Shown here: in pieces, positions 47,290 to 52,636 of the stretch
Layout: every line of letters starts with the position of its first letter
Position numbering within the stretch: the first letter of the stretch is position 1
Assembly: GCA_018222585.1 (NCBI GenBank)
Contig: JAAFAB010000002.1
Location: 434,001 to 498,000, forward strand
DNA length: 64,000 nt
Direction of reading: 5' to 3'
Source: Paracoccaceae bacterium
GTDB taxonomy: Bacteria > Pseudomonadota > Alphaproteobacteria > Rhodobacterales > Rhodobacteraceae
Program-made: the position numbers and the translations under genes
The notes under the pieces: generated by a model
Database searches by the model: none
What the model saw: only the letters and a program-made list of their open reading frames with translations
What the model was told of the DNA's origin: nothing

Positions 47290-47562
47290 GAATTCCAACC
47301 CTCGTTTGCTACGATTGCCATCGGTAGTGGCACAGTCTTACCTGTCGATGAACCTGTTTTTGCAGGCTCCGGACAATTTCCGCCGATTTTCTGGATTTTG
47401 TGATCACAGCGCGAAAACGCGTGATCACATTGGCCCGGGTGAGCGTCCATCACGGGGCGGCAAGCCGAGTCGGCCTGCCGGCTGCCCCAGGGTAACCGCT
47501 TCGGCGACCGGGGCAAACGCGGGATCTGACGGGGGGCACCGAGTCGGCTCGTCGAACGCAAA
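47290..47562. other. sucC promoter region
   Basis: About 270 bases between the mdh terminator and sucC. It contains the bipartite operator and a small CCTG/CAGG hairpin near 47354-47367. A weak -35-like TTGTCC (minus strand, near 47375) is present, but I cannot fix a -10. No gene seen. Confidence 0.5.
47398..47429. promoter_or_regulatory. Bipartite palindromic element upstream of sucC
   Basis: TTGTGATCACA, N4, GAAAA, N2, CGTGATCACA. Two copies of the palindrome GTGATCAC start at 47400 and 47421, exactly 21 bp apart (two helical turns). A nearly identical copy lies upstream of sdhC at 52485-52516. The binding protein is not known from sequence. Confidence 0.75.
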
Positions 47563-47586
47563 AGGGCCCGGCAGATGCCGGGCCCT
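47563..47586 (-). terminator. Intrinsic terminator of mdh
   Basis: Perfect 11-bp arms AGGGCCCGGCA and TGCCGGGCCCT with a two-base centre. On the minus strand it is followed by TTTTGCG, 25 bases after the mdh stop. Confidence 0.85.
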
Positions 47587-47610
47587 CCGCGATCTCTGCG
47601 AGGTGGTGAC

Positions 47611-48573
47611 TTACACCAGCGAGCTGTCGATGCCCTTGCAGGCTTCCATCAGGCCCTTCACGGCAGCCACGGACTTGTCGAAGCCCTCTTGCTCTTCCTT
47701 GTTCAGCTTGATCTCGACGATCTTCTCGATACCGCCGGCGCCGATCACGGTCGGGACGCCCACGTACATGTCCTTGAGGCCGAATTCGCCATTGCAGGCG
47801 GCGGCGCAGGGCAGGACGCGCTTCTGGTCCTTCAGATAGGCTTCCGCCATCTCGATGGCCGAGGTCGCCGGGGCGTAGAAGGCCGAGCCGGTCTTCAGCA
47901 GGCCGACGATCTCGGCGCCGCCGTCACGGGTGCGCTGCACGATGGCGTCCAGCTTTTCCTGGGTGGTCCAGCCCATTTCGACCAGGTCGGGCAGCGGAAT
48001 GCCGGCGACGGTGGAGTAGCGCACCGACGGCACCATCGTGTCGCCGTGGCCGCCCAGCACGAAGGCGGTGACGTCCTTCATCGAGACGTCGAACTCGGTG
48101 GCCAGGAAGTGACGGAAACGGGCGGAGTCCAGCACGCCGGCCATCCCGCAGACCTTGTGCGAGGGCAGGCCCGAGAACTGCTGCAGGGCCCAAACCATCG
48201 CGTCGAGCGGGTTTGTGATGCAGATCACGAAGGCGTCGGGGGCGTTGTCGCGGATGCCTTCGCCGACCGACTTCATGACCTTCAGGTTGATGCCCAGCAG
48301 GTCGTCGCGGCTCATGCCGGGCTTGCGGGGCACACCGGCGGTGACGATGCAGACATCCGCGCCGGCGATATCGGCGTAGGATTGGGTGCCCTTCAGCTTG
48401 GCGTCGAAGCCTTCCGAGGGGCCGGATTCGGCGATGTCGAGCGCCTTGCCCTCAGGGGTGCCTTCGGCGATGTCGAAGAGGACGACGTCGCCCAGTTCTT
48501 TGAGGGCTGCGAGATGGGCGAGCGTGCCGCCGATCTGGCCCGCGCCGATCAGGGCAATCTTGGGTCTGGCCAT
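47611..48573 (-). CDS. mdh: Malate dehydrogenase (lactate dehydrogenase-like type)
   Basis: Oxidises malate to oxaloacetate with NAD. 320 aa. NAD-binding [19 protein letters not shown], substrate arginines in [36 protein letters not shown] and the proton-relay histidine in [11 protein letters not shown]. Type and length match the LDH-like MDH of alphaproteobacteria. It has its own terminator and an AT-rich upstream region, so it appears to be transcribed apart from sucC. Confidence 0.97.
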
Positions 48574-48929
48574 TGGATCTGTCTCCGGTCCGGTTGAAAC
48601 GTCGAGGATGGGGTAGGCGCTTTGGATGCGGGACGCAAGGGTGGAGGGCCTGAGGGGCCCCGAGGGGAGCTGGCCTGAATGTATATAATGTTTTTAAAAT
48701 CAATAAACTGAGGGTCTATCGTCAGCGCCGTGCGGGGCTTGCTGCAGGGCAGCGAAACCGGGGGTTTTGCCCCTTTCGCAGGCATGTTAGCGCCCACGGT
48801 GCACGCGGCCGCCGCGATTCTTTCCACAGGGGTACTTACTGCCGTCCCCGGGCCGCAAGCATGGTCGGGTGCAAGGGTTAACGGCCTGATGACCTCCATG
48901 CCGGGACCCGTCTCGGCGCGTGAGGTCCC
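48574..48929. other. mdh upstream region with AT-rich island
   Basis: Around 48677-48714 the sequence drops to very low GC (TATATAATG, TTTTTAAAATCAATAAAC), in sharp contrast to its surroundings. It is the likely mdh promoter or a bent UP-like region. A TATAAT sits on the plus strand, pointing away from mdh, so an antisense start is possible. No gene with a ribosome site was found. Confidence 0.45.
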
Positions 48930-51029: not shown

Positions 51030-51036
51030 GGACCCG

Positions 51037-51240
51037 ATGAAACTGTACCGCTTCCTGTCTGAGGACGACACGTCAGCCTTCTGCCACAAGGTCACCAAGG
51101 CGCTGAACGCCGGCTGGGACCTTCATGGCAGCCCAACCTATGCCTTCGACGCCGCCAACGGCACCATGCGCTGCGGTCAGGCCGTGGTGAAGGAGGTCGA
51201 AGGCACCTACACCCCCGACACCAAGCTGGGAGAGCACTGA
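51037..51240 (+). CDS. DUF1737 domain protein
   Basis: 67 aa soluble protein. The DUF1737 pattern is LYRFLSEDDTSAFCHKVTKA then LNAGWDLHGSPTYAFD. Similar to short proteins and tails that begin with Y-x-x-L and a GW(D/E)LxG core. It starts seven bases after the NnrU gene and its stop touches the hydratase start, so it is in the same operon. Function unknown. Confidence 0.88.
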   Translation: MKLYRFLSEDDTSAFCHKVTKALNAGWDLHGSPTYAFDAANGTMRCGQAVVKEVEGTYTPDTKLGEH

Positions 51241-52269
51241 ATGAAGACCAACCCGGGCCGTTTCTTCGAGGACTACCGGCTGGGCGAGGTGATCGCCCAT
51301 GCCGTGCCGCGCACCGTGTCTGGCGGGGAGAGGGCGTTGTACCATGCGCTCTACCCGGCGCGCGGGGCGCTCTATTCCTCGGATGACTTCGCCCGGGCCT
51401 GCGGTCTGCCGCAGGCGCCGCTGGATGACCTGGCGGCGTTTCACCTGGTCTTCGGCAAGACGGTGCCCGATATCTCGCTGAACGCCGTGGCCAACCTGGG
51501 CTATGCCGAGGGGCGCTGGATGCGGCCGGTCTATCCCGGCGACACCCTGTCGGCGCGCTCGACCGTGATCGGGCTGAAACAGAACTCCAACGGCAAGTCC
51601 GGCGTGGTCTGGGTGAAGACGGAGGGGCTGAACCAGCGCGACGAGGTGGTGCTGAGCTATGTCCGCTGGGTCATGGTGCGCAAGCGCGACCTCGATGCCG
51701 AGGCACCGATGACGACGATCCCCGACCTCGCCCCGGCGGTCGAGGCCGCCGAGCTGGTGGTGCCCGAGGGTCTGGATTTCAGCCGCTATGACACCACGCT
51801 GGCGGGCGAGGCGCACCGCTGGGGCGACTATGAGGTCGGCGAGCGGATCGACCATGTCGATGGCGTGACCGTCGAAGAGGCCGAACACATGCTGGCCACC
51901 CGGCTCTGGCAGAACACCGCGAAGGTGCATTTCGATGCCACGGCGCGCCCCGACGGACAGCGGCTGATCTACGGCGGGCACGTCATTTCCATGGCGCGGG
52001 CGCTCAGCTTCAACGGGCTGGCCAATGCGCAGATGGTGGTGGCGCTGAACGGCGGTGCCCATGCCAACCCCTGTTTCTCGGGCACCACCATCCGGGCCTG
52101 GTCCGAGGTACTGGACCGCGCCGAGACCGCGGCGCCCGGCGTCGGCGCGCTGCGGTTGCGCCTGGTGGCGACCTCGGGCGGCGAACCCTTCACCCTGAAG
52201 GATGCCGCCGGAAAGTACCTGCCGCATGTGCTGCTCGATCTCGATTATTGGGTGCTGATGCCGCGCTGA
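51241..52269 (+). CDS. mch: Mesaconyl-CoA hydratase (beta-methylmalyl-CoA dehydratase)
   Basis: 342 aa double-hotdog MaoC-like hydratase that interconverts mesaconyl-CoA and beta-methylmalyl-CoA in the ethylmalonyl-CoA pathway. GRFFEDYRLGEVIAHAVPRT and FHLVFGKTVPDISLNAVANL in the first hotdog, IYGGHVISMARALSFNGLAN in the second. Length and position upstream of sdhC match Rhodobacter Mch. Its start directly follows the DUF1737 stop. Confidence 0.93.
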   Translation: MKTNPGRFFEDYRLGEVIAHAVPRTVSGGERALYHALYPARGALYSSDDFARACGLPQAPLDDLAAFHLVFGKTVPDISLNAVANLGYAEGRWMRPVYPGDTLSARSTVIGLKQNSNGKSGVVWVKTEGLNQRDEVVLSYVRWVMVRKRDLDAEAPMTTIPDLAPAVEAAELVVPEGLDFSRYDTTLAGEAHRWGDYEVGERIDHVDGVTVEEAEHMLATRLWQNTAKVHFDATARPDGQRLIYGGHVISMARALSFNGLANAQMVVALNGGAHANPCFSGTTIRAWSEVLDRAETAAPGVGALRLRLVATSGGEPFTLKDAAGKYLPHVLLDLDYWVLMPR

Positions 52270-52636
52270 TCGCGGCCCGGTACCGAGGAGTTGTCGTTGT
52301 GGCCGCGTCTGCGCGAAGCCGGGCCATGGGTGGGCACGTCCGCGGAAACTGCGGGGCAGGCGGGCGTGGCGATGGCCGGGCGTTCCTTTCGCTGCCCGGT
52401 CCGGAAGACCGCAGCAAGCGGAGGTGAGGTGCAGAATCACGGCGCAAAACCAAGCAAATCAGTCAGATTATCTGTTCGCCGAAATTGTGATCACACGGTG
52501 AAAATCCGTGATCACAATTCTGAAAAGATGTCGTTGTTTCTGTCAATTTCTCCGGGAAGCGCGCCCCGGAAAGGATGACAAGCGCATTTGATCTGGTAGA
52601 AGCTGGGTCCAAGGGAAATCCGGAAAGGACATGCCG
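52270..52636. other. sdh promoter region
   Basis: 367 bases with no gene. The first 160 bases are GC-rich and featureless to me; the rest drops in GC and holds the bipartite palindrome at 52485-52516, then AT-rich GTCGTTGTTTCTGTCAAT and the sdhC ribosome site. No sure -35/-10 pair. Confidence 0.5.
52485..52516. promoter_or_regulatory. Bipartite palindromic element upstream of sdhC
   Basis: TTGTGATCACA, N4, GAAAA, N2, CGTGATCACA, matching the element upstream of sucC at every position outside the spacers. GTGATCAC copies start at 52487 and 52508, again 21 bp apart. It lies 120 bp before the sdhC start. Confidence 0.75.

Follow-up and report, generated by a model that had tools for sequence, protein, structure and literature searches.

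Putative tandem AkgR-type operators upstream of sucC and sdhC in a Paracoccaceae bacterium and their conservation in the Rhodobacteraceae

INTRODUCTION

The AkgR regulon of Rhodobacter (Cereibacter) sphaeroides, reportedly described by Imam et al. in mBio in 2015, is among the closest described counterparts of the two 32-bp elements analyzed here, which are located upstream of sucC and sdhC in a 64,000-nucleotide stretch of DNA from Paracoccaceae bacterium (GenBank assembly GCA_018222585.1, contig JAAFAB010000002.1, positions 434,001 to 498,000; C35:434001-498000 in our numbering). This whole stretch is referred to below as the window. We take RSP_0981 of R. sphaeroides to be AkgR. AkgR is a GntR-family activator that has GTGATCAC among its reported binding sites, and a gntR-like regulator from Pseudomonas shares 32% identity with the R. 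sphaeroides protein (PMC6365646). RSP_0981 (GntR) was predicted to control the sucCD, sdh, and 2-oxoglutarate dehydrogenase genes of R. sphaeroides, a species that is said to be devoid of CRP and ArcAB analogues (PMC4344238).

The locus in the window resembles the R. sphaeroides AkgR regulon in its motif (GTGATCAC), in its targets (sucCD, sdh, and the 2-oxoglutarate dehydrogenase genes), and in the GntR family of the regulator (PMC6365646, PMC4344238); it belongs to another genus, and a 21-bp tandem arrangement, a site at akgR, and sites at fumC are described for it below. The operator of PS417_07240, from the deoxyribonate cluster of Pseudomonas simiae, has the same GTGATCAC, a gntR-like regulator, and a site shortly before the start codon of the regulator gene itself, but a single palindrome, at -47 to -40, is described for it, and it serves catabolic targets rather than genes of the tricarboxylic acid (TCA) cycle (PMC6365646). 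The CceR regulon of R. sphaeroides, which depends on a LacI family regulator, is likewise linked to central carbon genes, including sdh (PMC4344238, PMC11323563), but its motif, GTT-N6-8-AAC, is absent upstream of sucC, mdh, and sdhC here. The regulator, the motif, and the main targets are already known from R. sphaeroides, and the instance in this genome is new. We found no description of the strict tandem spacing, the phased AT tracts, or the single site at akgR in the literature searched, a search that the original AkgR paper lay outside of. The activator role and the motif are taken from the literature; the presence, conservation, spacing, and position of the sites, their co-occurrence with a regulator gene, and the akgR site come from the present analysis.

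RESULTS

Both elements have the layout GTGATCAC-N13-GTGATCAC, with the centers of the two palindromes 21 bp apart. The putative tandem AkgR-type operator before sucC covers positions 47398 to 47429 (palindromes at 47400-47407 and 47421-47428, 13-bp spacer), and that before sdhC covers positions 52485 to 52516 (palindromes at 52487-52494 and 52508-52515, 13-bp spacer); no strand is assigned to either. An earlier note on this DNA had reported the two elements and the 21-bp distance, and both are exactly as written there. It had also reported a match at all 26 nonspacer positions; the letters are as stated, but the share of GAAAA in this match looks like a coincidence, because GAAAA has opposite orientations relative to sucC (minus strand) and sdhC (plus strand) and because the spacer in other genera is AT-rich and not GAAAA. 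GAAAA was rejected as part of the motif for these two reasons. The conserved core consists of two GTGATCAC, usually with T and A flanks, with 13 or, rarely, 12 bp between them. When the window was searched for the 32-mer at up to 3 mismatches, the two elements were the only matches, whereas 100 shuffles gave none. The genome (5.15 Mb) contains 228 single copies of GTGATCAC, and about 0.02 N12/13 pairs are expected by chance; a genome-wide search for GTGATCAC-N11-15-GTGATCAC returned two pairs, which are the two elements, and a reversed-pattern control in the same genome returned none. No match to TGTGATCACA at up to 1 mismatch was detected upstream of mdh, where the earlier note had likewise seen no copy.

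We then considered the conservation of the pair in the family, using a sample of one genome per genus (61 genomes, including this one) and assigning pairs to genes by tblastn with sucC and sdhC of the window. An exact GTGATCAC pair (N0-30) was present in 51 of the 61 genomes; it was found before sucC in 51 and before sdhC in 41 of them. All 93 exact N12/N13 pairs could be placed, with 51 before sucC, 41 before sdhC, and 1 before fumC, so that they stand before consecutive TCA steps, namely, 2-oxoglutarate dehydrogenase/succinyl-CoA synthetase, succinate dehydrogenase, and, in a single case, fumarase. These 93 pairs comprise 72 sites (41 sucC and 31 sdhC), the fumC pair (genome G042), and 20 pairs from ten genomes that have two each (10 sucC and 10 sdhC). 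The geometry has been kept in 51 sampled genera despite otherwise divergent surroundings.

The spacer is N13 in 88 of the 93 exact pairs and N12 in the remaining 5, which are both copies of G055, the sucC copies of G009 and G002, and the sdhC copy of G057; outside the 61-genome sample, the sdhC copy of G082 is also an exact N12 pair. A hand count among the matches listed (37 genomes, 75 pairs) gave 66 N13, 3 N12, and 6 other spacers (N10 twice, N16, N22, N23, and N28), and both N10 pairs, which come from G044, stand before neither sucC nor sdhC. The strict spacing points to contacts between two putatively bound dimers. In G055 and G009, both operators have N12 (the sdhC copy of G009 with 1 mismatch), as if the spacing had shifted jointly. 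G040 has pairs with one mismatch each upstream of sucC and sdhC, and 2-mismatch pairs were among the matches listed for the operator-less genomes.

A class-wide sample of Alphaproteobacteria contained the pair in 7 of 385 genomes, corresponding to all 5 genomes of the family and 2 of the 380 others. In these two nonfamily carriers (G207 and G262) the pair is not before sucC or sdhC; the five family genomes add 6 more loci with the pair at one of these two genes. A second collection contained at least 126 N13 pairs in at least 119 stretches, and 117 of these pairs were before sucC (70) or sdhC (47). The other nine of the 126 listed were at the edge of a stretch (L201, L224, L228, and L284) or came from Streptosporangiaceae (2), Pseudomonas, Sphingobacterium, and Nocardia. 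The record names among the matches listed from this collection were mostly Rhodobacteraceae, Rhodobacterales, or genera of these groups. Records labeled Maritalea mobilis (L221) and Robiginitomaculum (L227, a metagenome-assembled genome), the labels being those given in the records, carry the pair before sucC or sdhC.

This genome yielded 41 GntR domain matches, and 30 of these loci were covered by a check for the palindrome. Of the 30, only C46:9185-9829 has GTGATCAC near its start, in the form of TTGTGATCACAA, 9 bp before the ATG. Its protein has GntR and FCD domains, and McbR (4p9f) is the solved structure closest to it in sequence. Orthologs, with at least 46% identity and E ≤ 1.8e-56, were found in 51 of the 61 family genomes. 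With the operator counted in 52 genomes (the 51 with an exact pair and G040), orthologs are present in 51 of the 52 operator genomes and in 0 of the 9 others; 51 genomes have both, 1 has the operator only (G019), none has the ortholog only, and 9 have neither. Ten operator genomes (G001, G011, G012, G015, G016, G023, G030, G032, G033, and G058) have the ortholog as the sole hit at E ≤ 1e-10, and more distant paralogs are therefore unnecessary. The recognition region SMTPaREa is kept across 30 ortholog loci. Neither an ortholog nor an exact pair was seen in G004, G008, G014, G017, G021, G029, G048, G054, and G059; the completeness of G008 and G021 is 82% and 79%, respectively, and G054 has a 40%-identical relative.

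The putative akgR gene has a site of its own. Among the 30 ortholog loci with the best scores, 25 have GTGATCAC within a few bases of the akgR start, on its upstream side and in most cases about 13 bp past a TTGAC (TTGAT in one locus, by eye). The TTGAC of this genome shares bases with the stop codon of the preceding gene, and its conservation is for this reason no proof of a -35 box. A palindrome about 13 bp after TTGAC would fall on the akgR core promoter, which makes autorepression the natural reading; AkgR probably represses its own gene via this single palindrome before the start codon.

Other single palindromes may widen the regulon. One is located 114 to 115 bp before fumC in this genome (G000; C61:125953-125962, L062) and in G039. 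The fumC search covered 32 genomes and found the gene in 30, with no hit at E ≤ 1e-100 in G027 and G041, and a palindrome within 300 bp upstream of fumC was present at 2 of these 30 loci, 24 of which are from operator-bearing genomes. G042, outside the 30-locus set, has a full N13 double site 125 bp before the fumC ATG. The fumC sites are apparently lineage specific and not core, and in some lineages AkgR control may extend to this following step of the cycle. A search of 18 genomes for TTGTGATCACAW located 20 distinct places, spread over 11 of the genomes; by position, these are 11 before akgR, 3 inside pairs, 1 before fumC (G039), and 5 elsewhere (G013:C1:4062196, G005:C6:103191, G056:C193:38866, G003:C1:1161396, and G003:C1:2100968). 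In this genome, the 13 distinct places with TGTGATCACR comprise 4 in the two pairs, 1 at akgR, 1 at fumC, and 7 elsewhere. As side observations, G005 has a strong single TTGTGATCACAA (G005:C6:103191-103202, L323) about 0.3 kb upstream of an atpHA-like ATP synthase operon (by eye; one genome), and in this genome TGTGATCACA also occurs between urease-like reading frames (G000:C35:681075-681084, L060; by eye), with no obvious target.

In relatives aligned on the operator, AT-rich stretches recur about every 10 bp from the operator to the promoter. The best AT period was 9.75 for sucC (n = 41) and 10.5 for sdhC (n = 31), with a periodicity power of 0.92 and 0.89, respectively, against maxima of 0.21 and 0.18 in 2,000 shifted controls that do not remove relatedness. 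A second set gave periods of 9.75 (n = 70, sucC) and 10.25 (n = 47, sdhC), but some of its contigs have the same lengths as contigs of the first; the sets overlap, and this is no independent repeat. Measured from the operator, the best -35 match begins at 57 to 60 bp for sdhC (18 of 31 sequences) and at 47 to 48 bp for sucC (17 of 41 sequences); in the second set, [AGT]TGAC[AGT] starts at 57 to 60 in 32 of 47. In the window, the operator-to-promoter stretches with AT tracts about 10 bp apart (profile over relatives; no strand assigned) are 47353-47399 for sucC and 52516-52574 for sdhC. The candidate sdhC promoter (52575-52602, plus strand), ATGACA (52575-52580)-N16-TAGAAG (52597-52602), starts 59 bp past the operator and is a consensus match at the same position as in relatives. 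The candidate weak sucC promoter (47324-47352, minus strand), TTCATC-N17-CACTAC, starts 47 bp past the operator, at the modal position in relatives, and is in this genome a weak and not the top-scoring match. On these predicted positions, the sucC promoter is nearer than the sdhC promoter, by about 11 bp, which corresponds to one turn of the helix. The predicted geometry would fit a mode of activation that works via the alpha C-terminal domain or by bending.

The genes of the window were assigned from open reading frames (ORFs) and Pfam matches. The sucC element is placed between mdh and sucC (succinyl-CoA synthetase beta; 46096-47289, minus strand, ATG at 47289; ATP-grasp_2/Ligase_CoA). Downstream of sucC is sucD (45207-46091, minus strand; CoA_binding/Ligase_CoA), which is followed by two small ORFs and sucA (41110-44100, minus strand; 2-oxoglutarate dehydrogenase domains). 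The two small ORFs (44186-45201) overlap and resemble small membrane proteins. On the plus strand, sdhC (52631-53026) is the first gene of sdhCDAB, with sdhD (53037-53408), sdhA (53431-55239), and sdhB (55252-56031) making up the rest. The distances of 109 and 120 bp to the start codons given in the earlier note hold for sucC, with its ATG at 47289, and for sdhC only if the second in-frame ATG (52637) is used instead of the first (52631).

DISCUSSION

Taken together, we consider it very probable that the two elements serve as tandem operators for AkgR, the TCA gene activator of the FCD subfamily of GntR regulators. The conservation, position, and spacing of the pairs and their co-occurrence with a GntR/FCD gene strongly support the view that one regulator acts on both operons through a common operator. 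The proposal in the earlier note of one regulator common to both operons is borne out to this extent, and so is its candidate, AkgR, for which the reported motif GTGATCAC, the predicted targets, and the co-occurring GntR/FCD gene all argue. Its idea of a dimer of dimers fits the fixed 21-bp spacing. Each GTGATCAC palindrome would bind one AkgR dimer, so that two dimers, separated by two helical turns and an AT-rich spacer, would occupy the same face of the DNA and would probably bind cooperatively. Located at about -87/-108 (sucC) and -98/-119 (sdhC) relative to the predicted start sites, these dimers would activate transcription, most likely via the alpha C-terminal domains of RNA polymerase or by bending along the phased AT tracts that run from the operator to the -35 region. 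In this manner, 2-oxoglutarate dehydrogenase, succinyl-CoA synthetase, and succinate dehydrogenase would be coupled to one signal, and the single palindrome just before the akgR start codon would probably mediate self-repression.

We weighed this proposal against several alternatives. The least credible is chance or neutral persistence in one lineage: GTGATCAC is common, as the 228 copies in this genome illustrate, but about 0.02 pairs are expected per genome and 2 were found, the same geometry recurs in 51 sampled genera whose surrounding sequences have otherwise diverged, and outside the family only 2 of 380 genomes have the pair. Hardly more plausible is a role of the pair as a hairpin in RNA or single-stranded DNA, such as a terminator or attenuator, in place of a protein operator. 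The palindromes can pair with each other, and the sucC site folded as single-stranded DNA has -11.7 kcal/mol and a z of -3.25, with 1 of 200 shuffles as good; repeated palindromes, however, always pair in such a manner, and the hairpin was rejected as an unavoidable property of them. In addition, the spacer sequence is free to vary while the spacing is fixed at 12 to 13 bp, the sites are upstream of predicted promoters, and single copies stand before akgR.

It is also very unlikely that the palindromes are the site of another class of regulator, be it a CRP/FNR-like protein or CceR of the LacI type. CRP half-sites likewise read TGTGA and TCACA, but a CRP site, TGTGA-N6-TCACA, needs a 6-bp spacer, whereas the half-sites abut here, and a CRP-type site was rejected for want of this spacer. 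Among the predicted targets of CceR in R. sphaeroides are sdh and mdh (PMC4344238), but its motif, [AGT]GTT-N6-8-AAC[ACT] (PMC4344238), does not occur in the upstream regions of sucC, mdh, and sdhC, and a CceR operator was rejected on that account; the comparison with the AkgR and CceR motifs that the earlier note had suggested comes out in favor of AkgR, with GTGATCAC reported among its sites (PMC6365646). Somewhat less remote, though still improbable, is the binding of another GntR/FCD regulator, e.g., the 38%-identical paralog G000:C46:454050, alone or together with AkgR. FCD paralogs were found in many of the genomes, G019 has the operator and only paralogs, and a gntR-like regulator of the Pseudomonas deoxyribonate genes was proposed to use the same GTGATCAC (PMC6365646). 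On the other hand, a second hit at E ≤ 1e-10 is missing from 10 genomes with the operator, the operator is present in each of the 51 genomes with an ortholog, and genomes with distant relatives only (G004, G014, G017, G021, G029, and G048, as well as G054 at 40%) have no exact pair.

A number of observations weigh against AkgR as the regulator acting through the two elements. Of the two copies, the one at sdhC is the less strict, since 10 genomes have one exact pair and this is always at sucC. A tally of sdhC pairs at 1 mismatch, covering 9 of these 10 (all except G012), found one in G009 (N12), G026, G052, and G058; G045 and G007 have 1-mismatch pairs that were not assigned to sdhC, and G019, G030, and G033 have no sdhC pair at up to 1 mismatch. 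Some 1-mismatch pairs are, by position, away from sucC and sdhC (G045 C1:978267 and 1016805; G052 C11:1348349 and C33:247048). G019, which is 91% complete, has the operator and no ortholog (best hit, 34%), and the P value for the co-occurrence of ortholog and operator (6e-10, Fisher) comes from a test that ignores shared ancestry. No exact palindrome was present before akgR in 5 of the 30 ortholog loci (L112, L114, L118, L120, and L121). The promoter positions are consensus matches only, and that of sucC is weak in this genome. Finally, the name AkgR for the putative regulator encoded at C46:9185-9829 was given on the basis of family, motif, targets, and co-occurrence.

More tentatively, and with somewhat less than an even chance of being right in our estimation, the geometry of the site may set the sign of the AkgR effect. 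The rigid two-dimer operator, with its 21-bp spacing on the same face and AT tracts phased at about 10 bp toward the promoter, would then be an activation module, the single palindrome on the akgR core promoter would be an autorepression module, and the pair would be a near-diagnostic marker of the family. With its strict spacing and its phased AT tracts, the module would offer a clean test case for activation, as opposed to repression, by GntR/FCD regulators, and two GTGATCAC 13 bp apart would provide a simple signature for reading AkgR control from the genomes of the family. The Rhodobacteraceae may tie consecutive TCA steps to one regulator.

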